Below, one piece after another: positions 9,799-18,471 of a DNA stretch of 36,549 nt. The position numbers were made by a program, and so were the translations under genes. Position 1 is the stretch's first letter; every line of letters begins with the position of its first letter. The notes under the pieces were generated by a model that did no database searches, was not told the origin of the DNA, and saw only the letters and a list, made by a program, of their open reading frames with translations. Where the stretch lies: NCBI GenBank assembly GCA_018261815.1, contig JAGTRL010000007.1, positions 1 through 36,549 on the forward strand, given 5' to 3'. This DNA comes from Pseudomonadota bacterium. GTDB lineage: Bacteria > Pseudomonadota > Gammaproteobacteria > Burkholderiales > Burkholderiaceae_C.

Positions 9799-10665
9799 TC
9801 AGCTCGGCTGCGGCTGAACCGCCGGCGTGGCCAGCGCCAGGCGGGCGCTGACTTCCTTGCGGTAGCGGTTCAATTCCTGCACGCTGGAGAAGCTGCGGTC
9901 GAGCAGCAGACTCATGTTGTGCAGGATGCGCTCGACCACCTTGGTCTCCCACACCGCGTCGAACTGGATCTGCTTGTCCAGCCAGTGTTCCAGCCAGGCC
10001 GGGTCGGGCAGGCGGCTCTGGATGGTGTCGCGCGGAAAGAGCTTGACGTTGACGTGCAAGTTGGTCGGGTGCAGCGCCTGCGCGGTGCGCCGCGCGCTGG
10101 CCATCAGCACGCCCACCTTGGCAAAGGCGGCACGCGCCTCGTCGCCAAAGCGCTGCATCGCCCGCTTCATGTAGCGCAGGTAGGCGCCGCCATGGCGCGC
10201 TTCGTCCTTGGCCAGGGTTTCGTAGATGTGGCGGATGACCGGCTCGGTGTGCCATTCGGCGGCGCGCCGGTACCAGTGGTTCAGCCGGATCTCCCCACAG
10301 AAATGCAGCATCAGCGTCTCCAGCGCAGGCGCCGGGTCGAACTCGAAGCGCACCGCGTGCAACTCTTCCTCAGTGGGCACCAGTTCGGGGCGGAAGCGGC
10401 GAAGGTATTCCATCAGCACCAGCGAGTGCTTCTGCTCCTCGAAGAACCACACGCTCATGAACGCGGAGAAGTCGCTGTCGCCCCGGTTGTCGCGCAGGAA
10501 CATCTCGGTGGCCGGCAGCGCTGCCCACTCGGTGATGGCGTTCATCTTGATGGTCTGCGCCTGCTCGTCGCTCAAGCGCGACGCGTCGAAGCGATCCCAG
10601 GGGATGTCGGTATCCATGCTCCAGCGCACGGCCTCGAGCTGCTTGAAGAGTTCGGGATAGAGCAT
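9799..10665 (-). CDS. Ferritin-like di-iron protein (possible acyl desaturase or oxygenase)
   Basis: The 288-residue, mainly helical protein carries two ExxH di-iron motifs: Glu77-x-x-His80 (FFEEQKHS) and Glu155-x-x-His158 (AKDEARHGG). Single Glu candidates lie at 54 (ATEMF) and 125 (CGEIRLNH). The order E, ExxH, E, ExxH is that of the ferritin-like/acyl-ACP desaturase/R2-like fold, in which a four-helix bundle holds an O2-activating iron pair. It is far longer than ferritin (about 170 aa), so iron storage is unlikely. The ATG at 10665 is chosen; the frame is open 37 codons upstream but the extra residues look non-coding. It is divergent from the lipid-modification operon beginning at 10930, so a lipid desaturation or oxygenation role is plausible but unproved. 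Confidence 0.8.
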   Translation of the reverse strand: MLYPELFKQLEAVRWSMDTDIPWDRFDASRLSDEQAQTIKMNAITEWAALPATEMFLRDNRGDSDFSAFMSVWFFEEQKHSLVLMEYLRRFRPELVPTEEELHAVRFEFDPAPALETLMLHFCGEIRLNHWYRRAAEWHTEPVIRHIYETLAKDEARHGGAYLRYMKRAMQRFGDEARAAFAKVGVLMASARRTAQALHPTNLHVNVKLFPRDTIQSRLPDPAWLEHWLDKQIQFDAVWETKVVERILHNMSLLLDRSFSSVQELNRYRKEVSARLALATPAVQPQPS

Positions 10666-10929
10666 CGTCGGTCCTGCGCAACAGTTGTCGCATTCTATGG
10701 ACCATTGCCCACCCCGCGACAAGGAGTGACAAGCCCCGCACCGCCAGCAGTTCCAGGCAATAGCCTCAGACCGCACTGGGATAAAGGATTACCATGAGAG
10801 ACAAATAGCGTCCAATGCGTTCACAATTAATACTCATCAGTTCAATTTCGACTTGTCGTCTCTGCTCAACATGATCCGGAACCCCACCTTTGCCCACGCG
10901 CCCGACGTGGTCGGCAGGGCCTGAAGCCC
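10666..10929. other. Divergent intergenic region upstream of lipid-modification operon
   Basis: This 264-base gap between two divergent genes includes a markedly AT-rich stretch (about 10781-10850) in a GC-rich neighbourhood, the likely promoter zone. A -35/-10-like pair on the minus strand (TTGGAC, 18 bases, TAATCC with the -10 at 10786-10791) could serve the ferritin-like gene. On the plus strand TGATCCGG at 10872-10879 resembles the -35 element of some ECF sigma factors, but no matching -10 follows at the right spacing. None of these is strong. Confidence 0.35.
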
Positions 10930-12222
10930 ATGCGCCGCATTGCGGTCATCGGCTCGGGCATCAGCGGCCTGTCTGTCGCGCACGCGTTGGCGCCGCAGGC
11001 CCAGGTGTCGCTGTTCGAGGCCGACGCGCGCTTCGGCGGCCACAGCCACACGGTGGACGTGCGCCTTAACGGTGTGCGCCACGGCGTGGACACTGGCTTC
11101 TTGGTCTTCAATCACCGCACCTACCCTCGGCTGGTGGAGCTGTTCGCGGCGCTGCAGGTGCCCACTGCACCTTCGGAAATGAGCTTTTCGGTGCAAGTGC
11201 CTCAGCAGGGCATCGAATGGAGCGGCTGCGATCTGAACACCGTGTTCGCGCAACGCAGCAACCTGCTGCGCCCGCGCTTCCTGGGCATGCTGGCTCAGAT
11301 CCTGCGCTTCAACCGGCTGGCAACCGGCATGGCCGAGTCCGGCGACGAGGCCTCGATGGCCGAGCCGATCGGCGATTTCCTGTCCCGCCAAGGCTTCGGC
11401 GAGGCCTTCCGCGATTGGTACCTGCTGCCGATGCTGGGCTGCATCTGGTCCTGCCCCACCGACGAGATGCTGCGCTTCCCGGTGGCCACGATGATCCGCT
11501 TCTGCCACAACCACGGCCTGATCCAGGTGAGCGACCGACCGCAGTGGCACACCGTGGTCGGCGGCTCGCGGGTGTACGTGCAGAAGATGTTGGCGAGCAT
11601 TCCCGACGCGCGTCTGCGCACCCCCGTGCGCACGGTGCGGCGCGTGGCCGGCGGCGCAATCGTCGCCACCGACCACGGCAGTGAACACTTCGACGAGGTG
11701 GTGCTTGCCTGCCACAGCGACCAAGCCCTGGCCCTGCTGGCCGACGCCAGCCACGACGAACGCGCGCTGCTCGGCGCCATCCGCTACCAACCCAACCAGG
11801 CTGTGCTGCACACCGACGCGACGGTGCTGCCGCGGCGCAAGCTGGCCTGGGCCGCCTGGAACTACGAGCGCGCGGCTGATTCCGCCCGCGAACAGTCCGC
11901 GGTATGCCTGCACTACCTGATCAACCGGCTTCAGCCGCTGCCCTGGACCACCCCGGTGGTGGTGTCGCTGAACCCCAGCCGCCACATCGCGACGGACAAG
12001 ATCATCGGCGGCTACGACTACAGCCATCCGGTGTTCGATGCTGCGGCCATCGATGCACAGCGCCGCCTGCCGCAGATCCAGGGCCGCGCGAGCACTTGGT
12101 TCTGCGGCGCCTGGACGCGCTACGGCTTCCACGAGGACGGCCTGATGTCGGGCCTGGCCGTCAGTGCCGCGCTGCGCGAGCGGCTCCAGGCCGGCGAACT
12201 CGCACAACGGGAAGCGGCATGA
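10930..12222 (+). CDS. FAD-dependent amine-oxidase-like oxidoreductase
   Basis: The 430-residue flavoprotein begins with a dinucleotide-binding motif, IAVIGSGISGLS, at residues 4-15, followed by the GGHSHTVD segment. It ends with a second FAD motif, CGAWTRYGFHEDGLMSG. This is the layout of the NAD(P)-binding/amine-oxidase family (COG2907) found next to DUF1365 and Cfa genes in many proteobacteria. It is the first gene of the operon. Its stop overlaps the DUF1365 start as ATGA at 12219-12222, indicating coupled translation. It probably oxidises or desaturates a membrane fatty-acyl or isoprenoid chain; this is inferred from neighbours, as the family has carotenoid-desaturase-like relatives. It is soluble or membrane-associated, with no signal peptide. 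Confidence 0.9.
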   Translation: MRRIAVIGSGISGLSVAHALAPQAQVSLFEADARFGGHSHTVDVRLNGVRHGVDTGFLVFNHRTYPRLVELFAALQVPTAPSEMSFSVQVPQQGIEWSGCDLNTVFAQRSNLLRPRFLGMLAQILRFNRLATGMAESGDEASMAEPIGDFLSRQGFGEAFRDWYLLPMLGCIWSCPTDEMLRFPVATMIRFCHNHGLIQVSDRPQWHTVVGGSRVYVQKMLASIPDARLRTPVRTVRRVAGGAIVATDHGSEHFDEVVLACHSDQALALLADASHDERALLGAIRYQPNQAVLHTDATVLPRRKLAWAAWNYERAADSAREQSAVCLHYLINRLQPLPWTTPVVVSLNPSRHIATDKIIGGYDYSHPVFDAAAIDAQRRLPQIQGRASTWFCGAWTRYGFHEDGLMSGLAVSAALRERLQAGELAQREAA

Positions 12223-12989
12223 CGTCGCGCGCGGTCGCGCAGATCGCCACCGGCGTGGTGCGCCACCGCCGGCTGCGGCCGGTGGACAACGCCTTCGAGT
12301 ACCGCACCTACTTCCTGATGCTGCCGATGCGCCGGCTGCGCGACGAGCCCTGCCCCGCGTTGACGCGCAACCGCTTCGGGCTTCTCGCCTTTCACGACCG
12401 CGACCACGGCGACGGCCGCAGCGACGCGCTGGCCTGGCTGGATGAGTTGCTGGGCGCCGAAGGCATCCACGATGCCGACGGCGAGGTCTGGCTGCAGACC
12501 TATCCGCGCGTGCTGGGCTATGTGTTCAAGCCGGTCAGCTTCTGGCATTGCGAGCGTGCCGACGGCTCGCTGGCGGCGATCGTGGCGGAGGTCAACAACA
12601 CCTTCGGCGAACGGCACTGCTACCTGCTCGCGGGCGAGCATCTGGCCTATGGGCACGACCTGCAGGCCCGCAAGGTGTTCCATGTTTCGCCCTTCAGCCA
12701 GATCGTCGGTGGCTACCGCTTCCGCTTCATGCGCAGCGCCTCGCCCGATGGCGAGCGCTGCGTGGCCCGCATCGACCATGAAGACGCTGATGGCGCACTG
12801 CTGCAGACCAGCCTGTCCGGCCGCCTGGCGCCGCTGACGCCGGCCAGTGCCCGCGCCGCGTTCTTCGGCATGCCGATGATGAGCTTTGGCGTCATCGCCC
12901 GTATTCACTGGCAGGCCTTGCGCGTATGGGCCAAGCGCGTGCCCTACGTGAAGAAACCGGCACCACCCGACAGCTTCGTCACGCGTTGA
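12219..12989 (+). CDS. DUF1365 family protein
   Basis: This 256-residue protein has the DUF1365 landmarks: an N-terminal VRHRRLRPVDNAFEYRTYF, a central LGYVFKPVSFWHC, and EVNNTFGERHCYLL in the second half. KVFHVSPF and GGYRFRF follow. No signal peptide or membrane helix is obvious and the length is normal. The biochemical role is unknown. The family occurs almost always with an FAD amine-oxidase-like gene before it and a Cfa-family gene after it, as here, so a role in the same lipid-modifying pathway is the reasonable inference. It starts inside the previous stop codon (ATGA) and is followed by cfa-like after 27 bases. Confidence 0.93.
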   Translation: MTSRAVAQIATGVVRHRRLRPVDNAFEYRTYFLMLPMRRLRDEPCPALTRNRFGLLAFHDRDHGDGRSDALAWLDELLGAEGIHDADGEVWLQTYPRVLGYVFKPVSFWHCERADGSLAAIVAEVNNTFGERHCYLLAGEHLAYGHDLQARKVFHVSPFSQIVGGYRFRFMRSASPDGERCVARIDHEDADGALLQTSLSGRLAPLTPASARAAFFGMPMMSFGVIARIHWQALRVWAKRVPYVKKPAPPDSFVTR

Positions 12990-13016
12990 TCCCCTTCGAG
13001 CCCCGAGCCCCTCGCC

Positions 13017-14243
13017 ATGAGCCGCAGCACGACCGCCCCATCCTTGTCCCTTCCCGAATCCGCGCCGGCCGCCGCGCGTGCCGCCTTCGGGTTGCTGCGC
13101 CAGCTGCGCATCGGCACGCTCGATCTGCAGTTGCCCGACGGTACGCAGATGCGTTTCGGCAGCGGCGCCGAGCATGAACCGCGTGGCGCGATGCGGCTGC
13201 GCAACTGGAAGGTCTGCGCCGCATCGCTGCGCAGCGGCGACATCGGTTTTGCCGAGTGTTTTATCGCCGAGGACTGGAGCTCGCCCGATCTGGTGGAGTT
13301 GCTGAAGGTCTTCATTGCCAATCGCGAGGCGGTGGAATCGGCCATCTACGGCAGCTGGTGGGGCTCGCTGCTGTACCGCGTCAAGCACCTGCTGAACCGC
13401 AACTCGAGGCGCGGCAGCCGCAAGAACATCCATGCCCACTACGACCTGGGCAACCCGTTCTACAAGCTGTGGCTGGACGAAACGATGAGCTACTCGGCCG
13501 CCTGGTTCGAGGGCGACTTGAGCCGCGACCTGCCACAGGCGCAATGGGCCAAGGTGCGGCGCGCGCTGGACGAATGCCGCGTGCAGCCGGGCCAGCGCGT
13601 GTTGGAAATCGGCTGCGGCTGGGGTGGCCTGGCCGAATACGCCGCACGCCACTGTGACGCGCGCGTCACCGGGGTGACGCTGTCCACCGAGCAGCTGGCC
13701 TTTGCACGGGAGCGGCTGCGCGCGCAGGGCCTGGACGACAAGGCGGACCTGCGGCTGCAGGACTACCGCGACCTGGCCGACGGCCCCTACGACGCGGTGG
13801 CCTCGATCGAGATGTTCGAGGCGGTGGGCCGCCAGTACTGGCCCGGCTTCTTCGCCAAGCTGCACCAGCTGCTCAAGCCGGGCGGGCGGGCCTGCATCCA
13901 GAGCATCACCATCCGCGACGACCTGTTCGACCGCTACGTCGATTCCACCGACTTCATCCAGCAGTACATCTTCCCCGGTGGGCTGCTGCCCAGCCCGAGC
14001 GCGTTTCGCGACCAGGCTGAAGCAGCAGGGCTGCGCATCGTCAACGAGCTGCGCTTCGGCGAGGACTACGCCGAGACGCTGCGCCGCTGGCGCGTGCGCT
14101 TCCTGGCCCAGGAAGCCGCCGTGCGCCAGCTGCGCTTCGACGGCCGCTTCATGCGCATCTGGGAGTTCTACCTGGCGTACTGCGAAGCGGCCTTCGCCAC
14201 CGGCAACACCGACGTCATGCAATTCACTCTGGAAAGAAAATGA
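13017..14243 (+). CDS. Cfa-family fatty-acyl-phospholipid methyltransferase (atypical cyclopropane synthase)
   Basis: The 408-residue enzyme has the Cfa plan: an N-terminal lipid-binding domain (1-135), then the conserved NIHAHYDLGNPFYKLWLD and the SAM-binding motif VLEIGCGWGG at 195-204. Later come DFIQQYIFPGG and the C-terminal WEFYLAYCEAAF. Such enzymes transfer a methyl group from SAM to a double bond of membrane phospholipid acyl chains. Two E. coli Cfa residues reported to bind the catalytic bicarbonate appear replaced. The Cys of YSCGYW is Ala here (YSAAWF, about 159-164), and the His of FEHVG is Ala (SIEMFEAVG, 263-271). Classical ring formation is therefore doubtful. A methyl- or methylene-fatty-acid product, such as a furan fatty acid precursor, is possible. 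Confidence 0.9.
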   Translation: MSRSTTAPSLSLPESAPAAARAAFGLLRQLRIGTLDLQLPDGTQMRFGSGAEHEPRGAMRLRNWKVCAASLRSGDIGFAECFIAEDWSSPDLVELLKVFIANREAVESAIYGSWWGSLLYRVKHLLNRNSRRGSRKNIHAHYDLGNPFYKLWLDETMSYSAAWFEGDLSRDLPQAQWAKVRRALDECRVQPGQRVLEIGCGWGGLAEYAARHCDARVTGVTLSTEQLAFARERLRAQGLDDKADLRLQDYRDLADGPYDAVASIEMFEAVGRQYWPGFFAKLHQLLKPGGRACIQSITIRDDLFDRYVDSTDFIQQYIFPGGLLPSPSAFRDQAEAAGLRIVNELRFGEDYAETLRRWRVRFLAQEAAVRQLRFDGRFMRIWEFYLAYCEAAFATGNTDVMQFTLERK

Positions 14244-14926
14244 CGCCCCCGCAGCGCCTTCGGCGCCTCCCCCCAGGGGGCGCCGCCAGCAGACCGGCGA
14301 AGCCGCATCCGCGGCGGCCGCTTGTAGATGGTGAGTCATGCACAACGGGTGCATGCCTTGGTACACCCTGGCCCGCCCGCCGCAGTGTTCTGCTGCTGCT
14401 CGCCACGTTGCCGTGCACAGCGCTGGCCAGCCGCGCGCCGCAGGCGCTGCCGCCGGAGCTGAAGACCGAGCTGCGCGATGCGCGCTTGCTCGGCGAAGGC
14501 ACGTTGCGCTACCTGGGCCTGCACGTCTACGACATCCGCCTGTGGGGCGAGGTCGACTTCAGCCTGAGTGACCTGCCGGGCTCTCCGTTGGCACTGGAGT
14601 TGCAATACGCCCGCTCGCTGGACGGCAAGGCCATCGCCGAACGCTCGCTGAAGGAGATGCAGGGTCTGGACAGCATCGATGCGGCGCTGGCCGAGCGCTG
14701 GCTGCAGCAGATGCGGCAGATCTTCCCCGACGTGAAGAAGGGCGACCGCATCACCGGCGTGCAGCGCCCAGGCGAAGCGGCCCGCTTCTTCGTCAACGGC
14801 CAGGCGCGCGGCGAGGTGCGCGACGCCGAGTTCACCCGGCTGTTCTTCGGCATCTGGCTGTCACCGCGCACCTCGCAGCCGCGCCTGCGCGAAGCGCTGC
14901 TCGGCACGCAGGGCCGCAGCTCGTGA
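14240..14926 (+). CDS. Chalcone-isomerase-like exported protein
   Basis: The frame of 228 codons contains a hydrophobic signal-like segment (SVLLLLATLPCTALAS) and a mature domain with GEGTLRYLGLHVYDIRLWG. Its end, QRPGEAARFFVNGQARGEVRDAEFTRLFFGIWLS, matches the bacterial chalcone-isomerase-like domain. The fold binds fatty acids in plant relatives; bacterial members are poorly known and not flavonoid enzymes. The only usable in-frame start is the ATG at 14240, overlapping the stop of the Cfa-like gene. This makes the first 30 or so residues a translation of the GC-rich repeat at 14246-14320. The native start was probably displaced by the repeat, or a frameshift lies near 14350-14390. Its stop overlaps the MFS start (GTGA, 14923-14926). 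Confidence 0.78.
   Translation: MTPPQRLRRLPPGGAASRPAKPHPRRPLVDGESCTTGACLGTPWPARRSVLLLLATLPCTALASRAPQALPPELKTELRDARLLGEGTLRYLGLHVYDIRLWGEVDFSLSDLPGSPLALELQYARSLDGKAIAERSLKEMQGLDSIDAALAERWLQQMRQIFPDVKKGDRITGVQRPGEAARFFVNGQARGEVRDAEFTRLFFGIWLSPRTSQPRLREALLGTQGRSS
14246..14320 (+). repeat. GC-rich palindromic dispersed repeat, copy A
   Basis: About 75 bases beginning CCCCCGCAGCGCCTTCGGCG match the reverse complement of 25671-25747 with about seven mismatches and one single-base gap, counted by eye. It contains two small hairpins: AGCGCC/GGCGC around TTC, and a C6/G5 stem around one A. It starts three bases after the stop of the Cfa-like gene, in the direction of transcription. It behaves like a REP-type intra-operon element. 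Confidence 0.8.
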
Positions 14927-16233
14927 ACGGCAGCCTGGCCGCCATGCCCGCGGCCCCACCGCCAGCGGCCCCTACCGGTTGGCGCGATGGCTGGCGCGAC
15001 GGGCTGAGCTACGGTGCGCTCGGCCTGCCGCTGGCCTTCGTGGCACTGCCGTTGTACGTGGTGCTGCCGAACCACTATGCCGAAGCCTTTGGCGTGCCGC
15101 TGGCCTGGCTGGGCGCCTTGCTGCTGGCGGCCAGGCTGCTCGACGCCGTCGTCGATCCGTGGATCGGCCGCCTCTGCGACCGCTGGTTCGCGCATTCGGC
15201 CGCGCGCGTGCTGGCCATTTCGGGTGCTGCGGCGCTGGCGCTGGCCGTTGGCTTCTTCGCGCTGTTCTTTCCGCCGATGCGCGATCTGCCCGGCCTGCTC
15301 GCCTGGTGCGGCGCGACGCTGGCCTTGAGCTACCTGAGCTACAGCGTGCTCAGCATCGTGCACCAGTCCTGGGGTGCCCGGTTGGGCGGCGACGCGGCGC
15401 AGCGCGCGCGCATCGTCTCCTGGCGCGAGGGGCTGTCGCTGGTGGGCGTGCTGCTGGCCAGCGTGCTGAGCTCGACACTCGGCCCGGCCGTCACCAGCGC
15501 GGTGCTGGCGCTGTCGCTATCACTGGGCCTGGCGGCGTTGCGTCGCGCGCCGCGCGCACCAGCCGGCATGTTGCCATCGCAGGCGGCGCCGATGCGGCTG
15601 GCGCTGGCCAATCCGTCGTTCCGGCGGCTGCTGACGGTCTATCTGGTCAACGGCATCGCCAGCGCGATCCCAGCCACGCTGGTGCTGTTCTTCATCCGCG
15701 ACCGGCTGCAGGCCCCCGCCTTCGAGCCACTGTTCCTGGGCGGCTACTTTCTGGCCGCCGCCTTGTCGATGCCGCTGTGGCTGCGCGCGGTGTCGCGCTT
15801 CGGCCTGGCACGCAGCTGGCTGGCCGGCATGCTGCTGGCCATCGCCAGCTTCGCCTGGGCCGCCGGCCTGGGCGCCGGCGACGTGCTCGGCTTCGCGGCG
15901 GTGTGCGTGGCCAGCGGCGTGGCGCTGGGTGCGGACCTGAGCCTACCCGGCGCGCTGCTGGCCGGCGTGATCCGACGAGCCGGCCACCAGGGCCGTGCCG
16001 AAGGCATGTACTTCGGCTGGTGGAACTTCGCCACCAAGCTCAACTTGGCGCTGGCCGCAGGCATCGCGCTGCCGCTGCTGGGCCTGTTCGGCTACGCCCC
16101 GGGCAGCCGCGACGCTGCGGCGCTGGACGCGCTGACGTTGGCCTACTGCGCACTGCCCTGCGTGCTGAAACTGATTGCCGCCGCGCTGCTGTACGCACGC
16201 TGGATGCGCAGCCCTGAAGGATCGACCGAATGA
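14923..16233 (+). CDS. MFS transporter (GPH/MelB-like)
   Basis: The 436-residue protein is strongly hydrophobic with about twelve membrane segments. Between the second and third segments lies DAVVDPWIGRLCDRW, the cytoplasmic loop motif of the glycoside-pentoside-hexuronide and related MFS group. SWREGLSLVGV and WWNFATKLNLALAAGIALPLLG are also typical of that group. The start is GTG at 14923, overlapping the previous stop. Sugar transport is the family textbook role. In this operon, between a lipid-modifying enzyme and a lipoprotein, it more likely moves a lipid or lipid intermediate across the inner membrane; that is inference. Its stop overlaps the lipoprotein start as ATGA. Confidence 0.9.
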   Translation: MNGSLAAMPAAPPPAAPTGWRDGWRDGLSYGALGLPLAFVALPLYVVLPNHYAEAFGVPLAWLGALLLAARLLDAVVDPWIGRLCDRWFAHSAARVLAISGAAALALAVGFFALFFPPMRDLPGLLAWCGATLALSYLSYSVLSIVHQSWGARLGGDAAQRARIVSWREGLSLVGVLLASVLSSTLGPAVTSAVLALSLSLGLAALRRAPRAPAGMLPSQAAPMRLALANPSFRRLLTVYLVNGIASAIPATLVLFFIRDRLQAPAFEPLFLGGYFLAAALSMPLWLRAVSRFGLARSWLAGMLLAIASFAWAAGLGAGDVLGFAAVCVASGVALGADLSLPGALLAGVIRRAGHQGRAEGMYFGWWNFATKLNLALAAGIALPLLGLFGYAPGSRDAAALDALTLAYCALPCVLKLIAAALLYARWMRSPEGSTE

Positions 16234-16754
16234 GACGCTGGTTCCTGGCCGCTGCCGCGGCAATGCTGTTGAGCGCCTGTGCGGCGCCGACCGTCGACGA
16301 CTACGCGGCCGAAAAGCCGCTGCTGGACCTGAAGACCTACTTCAACGGCGAGTTGGTCGCGCACGGCCTGTTTACGGACCGCGACGGCAAGGTGGCGCGG
16401 CGCTTCGTGGTGCAGATGTCCGGCACTTGGGCGGGCAACCAGGGCACGCTGGACGAACGCTTCACCTACAGCGACGGCAAGACCGAACGCCGCGTCTGGC
16501 GTCTCACCGACGAAGGCAACGGGCGCTGGACCGGCCGCGCCGACGATGTGGTGGACGTGGCCGAAGGCCGTGCCGCCGGCAATGCGCTGAACTGGCGCTA
16601 CACGCTCAAGCTGCCGGTGGGCGGCAGCGTCTACGAAGTGCAGTTCGACGACTGGATGTACCTGATGGACGAGCGCGTGATGCTCAACAAAGCGGTGATG
16701 AGCAAGTTCGGCATCCGGCTCGGCGAGGTCACGCTGGCCTTCTACAAGAAATGA
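16230..16754 (+). CDS. DUF3833 family lipoprotein
   Basis: This 174-residue protein has a lipoprotein signal peptide with lipobox LLSAC (Cys17), so the mature protein is lipid-anchored. The residue after Cys is Ala, consistent with sorting to the outer membrane. The mature region matches DUF3833: LDLKTYFNGELVAHGLF near the N-terminus, TWAGNQGTLDERFTYSDG, and DDWMYLMDERVMLNKAVMSKFGI near the end. The beta-rich pattern suggests a lipocalin-like barrel. The family lies in Cfa/DUF1365 operons in other proteobacteria. A role in carrying or handling the modified lipid in the periplasm is plausible but not shown. ATGA overlap with the MFS gene. Confidence 0.93.
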   Translation: MRRWFLAAAAAMLLSACAAPTVDDYAAEKPLLDLKTYFNGELVAHGLFTDRDGKVARRFVVQMSGTWAGNQGTLDERFTYSDGKTERRVWRLTDEGNGRWTGRADDVVDVAEGRAAGNALNWRYTLKLPVGGSVYEVQFDDWMYLMDERVMLNKAVMSKFGIRLGEVTLAFYKK

Positions 16755-16764
16755 TCGGCTCCCC

Positions 16765-17550
16765 ATGTCCCTGAATCCGCGCATCACCGACTGGACCGGT
16801 CGGGTCGTCTGGCTGGTCGGCGCGTCCACCGGCATCGGCCGGGCCACGGCCTCGCTGCTGCATTCGCGCGGCGCTCGCGTCATCGTCTCGGCGCGCACCG
16901 CCACCGCGCTGGAAGGCTTCGTGCGCGCCCACCCGGGCAGCGAGGCGGTGGCGCTGGATGTCACCGACCGGCAGTCGCTGGCGCAGGCGGCGACTCAAGT
17001 GGTGGCGCGCCACGGCCGCATCGACCTGGTGGTGTACAGCGCGGGCGTGTTCAAGCCGATGCGCGCCACCGCCTTTGACCTGGACGAGGCGCTGCGCCAG
17101 CTGAACATCAACTACGTCGGCGCGCTGAACCTGCTGGCCGCCGTGCTGCCGCAGCTGCTGCATCAGGCCGGCGCCGGCCAGCCGGCCCACCTGAGCCTGG
17201 TGTCCAGCGTCACTGGCTACCGCGGCCTGCCTACCGCGCTGGGCTACGGGCCGACCAAGGCGGCGCTGATCAACCTGGCCGAGACGCTGTACCTGGACCT
17301 GAACCCGAAGGGCGTGGGCGTGTCGCTGGTCAACCCGGGCTACGTGGACACGCCGGCCACTGCGCAGAACGACTACCAGATGCCGGCGCTGATCGGCGCC
17401 GACGAGGCCGCCAAGCAGATGGTCGGCGGCTGGGAGCGCGGCGAGTTCGAGATCCACTTCCCGAAGCGCTTCACCCGCGCGCTGAAGCTGGCCAGCCTGA
17501 TCGGCGACCGCATGTACTTCGCCGGCGTGCACCGCCTCACCGGCCTGTGA
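16765..17550 (+). CDS. Short-chain dehydrogenase/reductase (lipid operon)
   Basis: The 261-residue classical SDR has cofactor motif GASTGIG at 19-25, Ser147 or Ser148 (LVSSVTGY), Tyr161 and Lys165 (YGPTKAA). The usual NNAG is YSAG at 91-94, a variation seen in some SDRs. The end of the protein (ERGEFEIHFPKRFTRALKLASL) resembles SDRs that work near membranes. It probably oxidises or reduces a hydroxyl or keto group on a lipid, with NAD(P)H. It begins 10 bases after the DUF3833 stop and its own stop overlaps the next gene as GTGA, so it belongs to the same operon. Confidence 0.92.
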   Translation: MSLNPRITDWTGRVVWLVGASTGIGRATASLLHSRGARVIVSARTATALEGFVRAHPGSEAVALDVTDRQSLAQAATQVVARHGRIDLVVYSAGVFKPMRATAFDLDEALRQLNINYVGALNLLAAVLPQLLHQAGAGQPAHLSLVSSVTGYRGLPTALGYGPTKAALINLAETLYLDLNPKGVGVSLVNPGYVDTPATAQNDYQMPALIGADEAAKQMVGGWERGEFEIHFPKRFTRALKLASLIGDRMYFAGVHRLTGL

Positions 17551-17996
17551 ACGCGTCCGCTGCGAAGGCGCGCGACCCGCGCGTGCAGCGCATCATCCAG
17601 GCCTTCGAGCAGCTGCGCGCCAGCAACGTCGAGCGTCTGGGCGAGATTTACCGCGCCGACGCGCGCTTCAAGGACCCCTTCAACGAGGTGCAGGGCGTGC
17701 CGGCGATCCAGCAGGTGTTCCGCCACATGTTCGTCGCGCTGGACGGACCGCGCTTCGTCATCCGCGACGCGGTCTGCGATGGCGACCAGTGCTTCCTGAG
17801 CTGGGACTTCCTGTTCCGCATGCGGCGCTTTCGCCGCGACGAACAATGCATCCGCGGCGGCACGCATCTGCGCCTGGCCGCCGACGGCCGCATCTGCGAC
17901 CACCGCGACTACTGGGACGCGGCCGAGGAGCTGTACGAGAAATTGCCGGCGCTGGGCGCGCTGATGCGCTGGCTGAGGCGCCGAGCCAACGGCTGA
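17547..17996 (+). CDS. SnoaL/NTF2-like protein
   Basis: This 149-residue protein has an NTF2-like cone fold pattern. An N-terminal helix (RIIQAFEQLRASNVERLGEIYR) is followed by ARFKDPFNEVQGVPAIQQVFRHMF, then beta strands and a final HLRLAADGRICDHRDYWDAAEELY. The DPFN and HRDYWD segments are typical of SnoaL-like proteins co-encoded with Cfa and SDR genes. Such domains act as small isomerases, cyclases or ligand binders; catalytic identity cannot be read. It starts at a GTG overlapping the SDR stop and is the last gene of the eight-gene operon. It ends four bases before the convergent gene at 18001, with no terminator hairpin between. Confidence 0.88.
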   Translation: MNASAAKARDPRVQRIIQAFEQLRASNVERLGEIYRADARFKDPFNEVQGVPAIQQVFRHMFVALDGPRFVIRDAVCDGDQCFLSWDFLFRMRRFRRDEQCIRGGTHLRLAADGRICDHRDYWDAAEELYEKLPALGALMRWLRRRANG

Positions 17997-18000
17997 GACC

Positions 18001-18471
18001 CTAGATTTGCCCCTCGGTCAGCGAGTGCACCTGGAACTGTCCGGACTTGTCCACCAGCCAGACTTCCACGAACTTGACGCGGCCGATGCGCGCAGGCGGC
18101 GGTAGCGGCGAAGCACGGTGGATCATCGATACCACCCAGGGCGTGACCTCGCGCGCCGCGGCCGGCTGGCGCAGCACGCGTACCTTGAGCACCTTGCCGC
18201 GGGCGTCGATCTCGGTCTCGGTGACCAGGATCGCGTAGACCAGCGGCGGCACCTTGCCCTTGAGGATGTGAGCCGGATAGGCGCCGTAGATGTGTCGTGC
18301 CGCATCGATGCGGTAGGCCTTCGCTGTTGGCGCGTCGGACGGCTGCAGCGCCGCCACCTTCTGCGGTTGGGGCACGGCCGCGAACTGCGCTTGCGCCGAA
18401 GCGCCGGCCAGCGCGACGGTCGCCAGCATCACCAGCCCGAACGAACGCGGAATGGGCCCGGTCAAGGTCAT
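18001..18471 (-). CDS. Exported TonB C-terminal-like protein
   Basis: This 156-residue protein starts at an ATG at 18471; a TTG ten codons upstream is less likely. A Sec signal peptide ends near GASAQAQ. The mature part has YPAHILKGKVPPLVYAILVTETEIDARGKVLKVRVLRQP followed by a helix and a last strand, similar to the TonB C-terminal (energy transducer) alpha/beta domain. Unlike true TonB it has no membrane anchor that would remain and no proline-rich spacer. It may be a periplasmic partner protein rather than an energy transducer. It stands alone between the lipid operon and corA, on the same strand as corA. Confidence 0.7.
   Translation of the reverse strand: MTLTGPIPRSFGLVMLATVALAGASAQAQFAAVPQPQKVAALQPSDAPTAKAYRIDAARHIYGAYPAHILKGKVPPLVYAILVTETEIDARGKVLKVRVLRQPAAAREVTPWVVSMIHRASPLPPPARIGRVKFVEVWLVDKSGQFQVHSLTEGQI

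Follow-up and report, generated by a model that had tools for sequence, protein, structure and literature searches.

We analysed a stretch of 36,549 bases, here called the window, which is the whole contig JAGTRL010000007.1 of assembly GCA_018261815.1 (Pseudomonadota bacterium, Burkholderiales, Burkholderiaceae_C), a draft genome of 460 contigs that is 85.4% complete. At 10930-17996 on the + strand lie eight closely spaced genes, which an initial annotation had described as one coupled operon for an uncharacterised membrane-lipid modification. The open reading frames (ORFs), their coordinates and their strand were confirmed, as were the junctions (-4, +27, -4, -4, -4, +10 and -4 bases, from gene 1 to gene 8) and the family names, Pfam matches for all eight genes being above curated cut-offs. 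The genes and a candidate regulatory site before them are as follows:

10830..10845, no strand assigned: candidate TetR-type operator ATACTCATCAGTTCAA, 84 bp before gene 1
10930..12222, + strand: gene 1, flavin adenine dinucleotide (FAD)-dependent oxidoreductase of UfaD type, putative acyl desaturase (Amino_oxidase 53 bits, NAD_binding_8 46 bits)
12219..12989, + strand: gene 2, DUF1365 protein of UfaO type, putative furan-forming oxygenase (PF07103 257 bits)
13017..14243, + strand: gene 3, Cfa-like S-adenosylmethionine (SAM) methyltransferase at the UfaM position, putatively methylating an 18:1 chain (CMAS PF02353 285 bits)
14240..14926, + strand: gene 4, chalcone-isomerase-like (CHI) protein with a hydrophobic N-terminal segment, putative exported lipid binder (Chalcone_3 PF16036 49 bits)
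14923..16233, + strand: gene 5, transporter of the MFS_2/GPH family (MFS, major facilitator superfamily; GPH, glycoside-pentoside-hexuronide), putatively for lysolipid or acyl lipid (PF13347 158 bits)
16230..16754, + strand: gene 6, DUF3833 lipoprotein with a predicted lipocalin/calycin-like barrel (PF12915 241 bits)
16765..17550, + strand: gene 7, short-chain dehydrogenase/reductase (SDR) (adh_short PF00106 127 bits; RSP_1087 family)
17547..17996, + strand: gene 8, SnoaL/NTF2-like small protein (SnoaL_2 PF12680 61 bits)

The start of gene 2 is the ATG at 12219, picked inside a longer listed ORF, and that of gene 4 is uncertain, its 4-base overlap with gene 3 being found in 9 of 51 relatives under automatic start choice.

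We looked for the same set of genes in other Burkholderiales. The loci compared are the best 80 matches of a DUF1365 alignment search of genome contigs, which is not a census, and genes were searched in them by tblastn at 35% identity using the eight window proteins and the Azoarcus counterparts of seven. The closest DUF1365 matches belong to Rubrivivax-type and other Burkholderiales, with 66-76% identity over the first ~15 among the matches listed. Results showed that all eight genes are present in the same order in 48 of the 80 loci, including one (L078) that looks frameshifted, its genes matching in pieces, and that was excluded from protein extraction; by tblastn none of the 80 loci was out of order. 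Among the remaining 32, 12 have less than 5.9 kb downstream or less than 1 kb upstream and 20 are without one or more genes, namely SnoaL (13 loci), CHI (10) or MFS (8), where missing by tblastn may also mean too diverged, for CHI above all. DUF3833 was found in 18 of 24 same-genus genomes drawn; 15 of these 18 stretches were fetched, of which 13 extend as far as gene 1. All eight genes are present in 11 of the 13, one of the other two having no SnoaL match and one no CHI match (at least three of the same-genus stretches are contigs already in the 80-locus set). Median identity to the window proteins among relatives goes from 44% (CHI) up to 63% (Cfa), with 62% for gene 1 (73 relatives) and gene 4 as the least conserved gene (51 relatives). 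Because all eight genes occur in order in 48 of 80 relatives, they are a conserved unit beyond chance, as the claim of one coupled unit had supposed, and the proposal that the CHI, MFS, SDR and SnoaL genes should be conserved along with the Cfa-DUF1365 pair held in those same loci.

The first three genes find their counterparts in a pathway already in print. In Rhodobacter sphaeroides, UfaD is RSP1091 (an NAD/FAD-binding protein), UfaO is RSP1090 (a DUF1365 protein) and UfaM is RSP2144; the three together suffice in vivo for furan fatty acid, and Rhodopseudomonas palustris RPA2571-2570-2569, corresponding to UfaD-UfaO-UfaM, have the same function in vivo (PMC7380195, represented here, like the other papers cited, by excerpts). 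Work with mutants and in vitro assays has linked DUF1365 with the closing of the furan and UfaD with the desaturation step on the methylated chain (PMC7380195), and plants have UfaM/UfaD-like and UfaO-like proteins (PMC10940516). In the window, the CMAS, Amino_oxidase and DUF1365 matches fall on adjacent genes, that is one protein for each of the UfaM, UfaD and UfaO families encoded together (Pfam). Genes 1 and 2 have the families and the order of UfaD and UfaO, with gene 3 at the place of RPA2569 (UfaM); the N-terminus of gene 1 reads VIGSGISGL, and gene 2 is the sole DUF1365 match in the genome. Judged by family and position, gene 2 belongs to the UfaO family and gene 1 corresponds to UfaD, and genes 1-3 most likely form a complete methylated-furan-fatty-acid cassette. 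DUF1365 is thus no longer an unassigned step, as it had been taken to be, since it is the UfaO family (PMC7380195). Regarding the uncharacterised membrane-lipid modification, a probable acyl-lipid modification akin to the furan genes stands, while its core chemistry is already published, because DUF1365 is the UfaO family and the FAD gene the UfaD counterpart.

Gene 3 was compared with canonical synthases. In a tree of 30 rows that took in 16 of the locus Cfas, it groups with operon Cfas of other Burkholderiales and with ufaO-adjacent Cfas of Rhizobium and Ensifer, set apart from E. coli Cfa with support of 99/97 and with long-branch warnings. Residues Cys139, Glu239, His266, Ile268 and Tyr317 of E. 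coli Cfa are active-site residues of the canonical cyclopropane fatty acid synthase; in gene 3, Glu239, Ile268 and Tyr317 are kept, while Cys139 is replaced by Ala and His266 by Gln, so that the canonical active site is not found. Position 139 is Ala or Ser and position 266 is Gln (E. coli Cfa numbering) in each of the 24 UfaO-linked rows, and none of the four outgroup rows (DUF1295-type or other) has Gln at 266. The second Cfa gene of the genome, the only other full-length CMAS match, keeps both the canonical Cys and His and lies, by eye, in a pyrB-pyrC-like neighbourhood of housekeeping appearance. The N-terminal part of this second gene (genome G000, contig C411, L014:7489-8653) is seemingly in another frame, either a broken gene or an assembly error.

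The structure of gene 2 was also considered. Its AlphaFold2 model has a mean predicted local distance difference test (pLDDT) score of 95.1, and Foldseek gave no PDB match at E <= 0.001 (best 0.035), for which reason the reading of a UfaO cofactor from the fold was dropped. Searching the PDB by sequence gave no usable match for genes 2, 4 or 6 (best E 0.08 for the gene 2 profile). As the predicted fold is without a clear match among solved structures, UfaO is a good target.

Our preferred reading, which we consider probable, is that the eight genes constitute a membrane-lipid operon in which genes 3, 1 and 2 are UfaM, UfaD and UfaO, genes 4-8 handle the lipid and a TetR-family regulator exerts control. 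The three enzymes would act in this order on phospholipid acyl chains: gene 3 would methylate an 18:1 chain in a SAM-dependent manner, the FAD enzyme of gene 1 would desaturate the methylated chain with O2 as the proposed acceptor, and gene 2, the DUF1365 enzyme, would add an O2-derived oxygen, closing the methylated furan ring. This chemistry has been shown in R. sphaeroides and, with R. palustris genes, in vivo (PMC7380195), and we infer it for the window. Genes 4-8 are probably dispensable for the ring itself. Gene 5 may take an acyl lipid or a lysophospholipid through the inner membrane; on the envelope side, binding and carrying of the lipid may fall to gene 4 and to gene 6, the lipocalin-like lipoprotein, and by-products may be the substrates of genes 7 and 8. 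Transcription would probably go via a TetR-family repressor and not via RpoE-ChrR or LitR. The operon is probably protective against oxidants. What was a vague unknown lipid operon becomes testable, as one can ask which three of the genes are enough to make the ring.

Considering genes 4-8, in the R. sphaeroides annotation RSP_1089 is a GPH-family sugar/cation symporter, RSP_1088 a hypothetical protein and RSP_1087 a short-chain dehydrogenase (PMC7074977), and genes 5, 6 (by presumed family) and 7 match them in order. In a chrR mutant, deletion of RSP_1089, RSP_1088 or RSP_1087 singly caused no detectable change in furan fatty acid or its precursor (PMC7380195); therefore the MFS, DUF3833 and SDR genes are unlikely to be synthesis steps, and by analogy genes 5, 6 and 7 of the window are probably none either. 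The view of the genes as steps that make the lipid can consequently be kept for genes 1-3, and not for the MFS, DUF3833 and SDR genes.

For genes 4-8 we propose a lipid-handling role, on the grounds that gene 5 is a member of the MelB/MFSD2A family and that DUF3833 is a predicted lipocalin-like lipoprotein. Gene 4 has by eye a hydrophobic stretch, RRSVLLLLATLPCTALASRA, at its N-terminus. With the single sequence of gene 5, the best PDB match was MFSD2A, a lysophosphatidylcholine symporter (E 1.3e-7; MelB 0.0016). This preference vanished with a profile, so that a clearly MFSD2A-like gene 5 was rejected and is kept as a tentative assignment; MelB-like and MFSD2A-like proteins cannot be told apart from sequence alone. 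In GPH/MFS_2 transporters, the Asp pair of helix II and the Lys of helix XI have functional roles, and gene 5 has the family profile together with D74, D78 and K372; across 28 rows R71 and D78 are invariant and D74 and K372 occur in at least 90%. Gene 6 carries a lipobox, LSAC, at residues 14-17, and a simple lipobox pattern is found in 53 of 65 DUF3833 proteins as called. The AlphaFold2 model of gene 6 (pLDDT 94.7) gave 20 PDB fold matches at E <= 0.001 with TM-scores of 0.38-0.64 by query length, including nitrophorins, crustacyanins and designed barrels, a fold class that we take to be lipocalin/calycin, and three related clusters contain annotated lipocalin genes. NTF2-family genes, as gene 8, are present in the clusters of Azoarcus, Azospirillum, Cupriavidus pinatubonensis and also Aeromonas salmonicida.

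A possible alternative, which we regard as clearly less probable than a single lipid operon, is that one transcript serves two functions, genes 1-3 making the furan lipid and genes 4-8 being engaged independently in import, export or repair of other lipids, for example oxidised ones. The unchanged furan and precursor levels after the single RSP_1089, 1088 or 1087 deletions (PMC7380195) agree with this, as do the MFS, DUF3833 and SDR genes of Ensifer, which lie on the strand opposite to ufaD-ufaO, and a Marivivens MFS relative with no ufaO within 6 kb. On the contrary, the gene order is tightly kept in Burkholderiales, and among 16 plasmid records with a close MFS relative DUF1365 was nearby in 5 of the 6 opened. 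Within the preferred reading, a dedicated route in which furan acyl chains or lysophospholipids travel via an MFSD2A-like transporter, the CHI-like binder and the DUF3833 lipoprotein to the outer membrane is speculative, and we would rather doubt it; if true, this route would place an oxidant-quenching lipid in the outer membrane. Whether the other five genes, co-travelling across Burkholderiales, move lipid between membranes is testable.

It is unlikely that gene 3 makes a cyclopropane or other methyl-branched chain and that the FAD and DUF1365 enzymes give a product other than a furan, such as a cyclopropene, an epoxide or a hydroxy acid, even if gene 3 matches cyclopropane synthase models best. 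Plant proteins fusing UfaD-like and Cfa-like domains include cyclopropane synthases, so the loss of Cys and His in gene 3 is compatible with cyclopropanation. Moreover, the annotation of RSP_1090 and RSP_1091 makes them putative proteins of cyclopropane/cyclopropene synthesis (PMC7074977), a label that has been termed unjustified (PMC3818230). The mutant and in vitro results that assign furan closure to DUF1365 and desaturation of the methylated chain to UfaD (PMC7380195) argue against such products, as do the replaced Cys139 and His266 of gene 3 and the separate CMAS with both residues elsewhere in the genome.

Control of the operon was examined next to the genes themselves. ECF (extracytoplasmic function) sigma/ChrR control, which the initial annotation had mentioned as known for parts of the set in some proteobacteria, turned out unsupported in this lineage. 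No ChrR exceeds the TIGR02451 cut-off in the window's genome, where three partial matches reach at best 29.6 of 124.5 bits, all on contigs other than the window; full ChrR is found in none of 18 same-genus genomes with DUF3833 (7 have partial matches below cut-off) versus one of 6 without DUF3833. The absence of ChrR and sigma factor from the window itself is confirmed, with no ECF sigma among its Pfam-scanned proteins (12 outside the operon, not covering every ORF). Neither of two TGATC-type two-part promoter patterns was found in the 300 bp preceding gene 1, which hold a lone TGATCC at 10872-10877, and a sigma-70 scan of 10600-18200 gave no promoter-like site. No LitR ortholog was found in the genome (best 23% identity), and no TGTCC-N-GGACA palindrome, the LitR/CarH operator, in the window. 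Both kinds of control were rejected, as genes and sites were searched and not found (for ChrR, over cut-off), and RpoE-ChrR or LitR control is unlikely here, the absence of ChrR and LitR being no proof because the genome is 85% complete. Membership of the operon in an RpoE-ChrR singlet-oxygen or a LitR light regulon in this organism would thus be very improbable, in spite of the ECF/ChrR genes near the cluster in Azospirillum, Qingshengfaniella, Rhizobium, Phyllobacterium and two Ensifer plasmids, the sigma/anti-sigma pair on a Burkholderia anthina plasmid and a divergent MerR-type gene before the operon in many Burkholderiales.

Of 7 plasmid stretches opened from alphaproteobacteria, 6 have ECF/ChrR genes close to the cluster; the seventh (Marivivens) has no ufaO in the stretch. 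The divergent MerR-type gene, recognised by its tblastn match to the copy in Azoarcus, stands before the operon in 38 of the 65 Burkholderiales loci whose upstream flank is 4.5 kb or longer. Two MerR-type copies scanned contain MerR and B12-binding_2 domains. Upstream of gene 1 in three loci (L061, L092 and L099), TTTGTCCAGGACAAA-type palindromes or halves were seen by eye near the divergent MerR-type gene, of which they are likely the operator.

Our best guess for the window is a TetR-type repressor. In same-genus loci L162-L164 gene 1 immediately follows a tetR-type gene (TetR_N in L162), and the space separating the two genes holds a palindromic site; the candidate site at 10830-10845 has 2 of 16 mismatches to that site, which 0 of 300 mononucleotide shuffles of the upstream region reach. 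The site pattern, written after seeing the sites, is exact in 3 of 173 loci (the window region, L001, with L162 and L164), and a site within 4 mismatches occurs in 8 of 71 relatives versus 0-1 of 72 in three shuffles. A TetR_N protein of the genome, on contig C166, is 65% identical to the L162 copy (E 5e-74; next best 2.5e-7), and a related site with 3 mismatches, given without a chance control, precedes its gene. A search of the genome for the full palindrome returned one other place, no more than the reversed control.

Several observations weigh against the preferred reading. The orthology of genes 1-3 to UfaD, UfaO and UfaM rests on family, position and order; the Cfa tree holds only 16 locus Cfas, with E. 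coli Cfa and the C411 fragment as long branches, and Ser at 139 also occurs in one of the four outgroup rows. No lipid measurement was seen for any organism with the eight-gene order. Full activation of RpoE is stated to require RSP_1090/1091 (PMC7074977), and a signalling role would agree with this too. As for the later genes, RSP_1089-1087 are stated to be kept, within alphaproteobacteria, only in Rhodobacteraceae (PMC3818230), the Marivivens plasmid carries the MFS gene without ufaO within 6 kb, a 28-row gene 5 profile slightly favours MelB (2.4e-22 versus 1.4e-21 for MFSD2A), and 12 of 65 DUF3833 proteins as called have no simple lipobox pattern. Finally, the TetR site of the window is imperfect and the matching TetR gene is unlinked.

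Among the 71 relatives that have 300 bp before gene 1, 30 carry a structured element there, with three helices, a CTCC-repeat loop and a U-rich tail (for example L021:2223-2338, with 29 further loci in alignment A3), and a covariance model detected it in four more of the 80 loci. Two-sided, pairing-keeping changes are seen at 23 of 25 consensus pairs, and 94% of cells pair, compared with 79% after shuffling and 39-49% for slid controls; the structure itself comes from the same alignment. The model did not find the RNA in the window's genome; it found a single copy per genome in 25 of 40 genomes of the same family (the source of loci L103-L127), and matches in 2 of 80 genomes of an order sample, one from the same family and one weak. 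At the Rfam gathering score no family matches the RNA (7 loci), and at a relaxed threshold (4 loci) the best overlap was tfoR, 18.4 of 70 bits with E 1.3, at chance level. An operon-specific leader was rejected, as the FAD gene lies within the 1.5 kb flank after only 11 of 25 same-family copies, and as DUF1365 is missing from 7 of the 25 RNA-positive genomes and present in 13 of 14 RNA-negative ones. With only those 11 of 25 copies directly before the FAD gene and those 7 genomes lacking DUF1365, the RNA is probably an independent small RNA (sRNA). It presumably resembles the 'cuckoo'-type sRNAs with CCUCCUCCC loops. GGAACTT, the -35 motif of E. coli sigmaE, lies upstream in 17 of 30 RNA loci, and seven more matches in loci without the RNA are seemingly inside an upstream glutathione peroxidase gene (one locus tested). 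Such a gene runs straight into the operon at L046:7991-8671 (PF00255 114 bits) and was seen by eye before it in L041, L055, L057, L058, L064, L075 and L081. In eight same-family genomes (L130-L137) the RNA lies beside an opposite-strand ORF family and a conserved downstream gene, and its neighbours in L133 are glutathione S-transferase and adenylosuccinate lyase (purB) by Pfam.

Divergent from the operon, the window encodes at 9799-10665 on the - strand a ferritin-like protein with an acyl-ACP desaturase profile above cut-off and AurF just below. The gene was found in 38 of 80 loci with 76-91% identity, and its product could be another acyl-modifying oxygenase.

Open-licence PMC (PubMed Central) literature gave no description of DUF1365 and DUF3833 together, and no report with chalcone isomerase plus at least two of cyclopropane synthase, FAD-dependent oxidoreductase and MerR. 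Related clusters are already in print, therefore the kind of chemistry is known and the variant here is the eight-gene bundle and the regulator swap. In R. sphaeroides, whose operon and RpoE activation have been described (PMC3818230), RSP_1091-1087 encode the FAD, DUF1365, GPH/MFS, small (186 aa, presumably DUF3833) and SDR proteins in the same relative order as in the window. However, ufaM (RSP_2144) is unlinked there and the five-gene operon is without CHI and SnoaL and adjacent to rpoE-chrR, whereas in the window Cfa, CHI and SnoaL belong to the operon, and the search for ChrR came out negative. R. palustris RPA2571-2569 shares the first three steps and their gene order (ufaD-ufaO-ufaM), counterparts of genes 4-8 not being named in the excerpts of PMC7380195. 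An ECF regulon of P. syringae includes orthologs of RSP_1087, 1088, 1090, 1091 and 2144 (PMC5507510). The light-inducible pmlR1/pplR1 cluster of Pseudomonas (phrB, SDR, FAD oxidoreductase, ufaM), linked to LitR, likewise brings FAD, SDR and Cfa-like genes together, but it is under class II LitR control, includes a photolyase gene and has no CHI or MFS named in the excerpts of PMC9758184. In V. cholerae the Cfa gene VC1122 is induced by blue light (PMC5241685) and VC1123, a DUF2878 neighbour, is in a MerR-type regulon (PMC12971978), while the Aeromonas cluster reads NTF2-SDR-FAD-DUF1365-Cfa-DUF2878 (PMC10012899). Plasmid pAZKH of Azoarcus sp. KH32C and plasmid p2 of C. pinatubonensis have all eight genes in the same order and strand and differ from the window directly upstream, by a divergent MerR gene in Azoarcus or a helix-turn-helix gene in Cupriavidus. 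The same chemistry thus adjoins at least three kinds of regulator genes, ECF/ChrR, MerR with B12-binding domains, and TetR.

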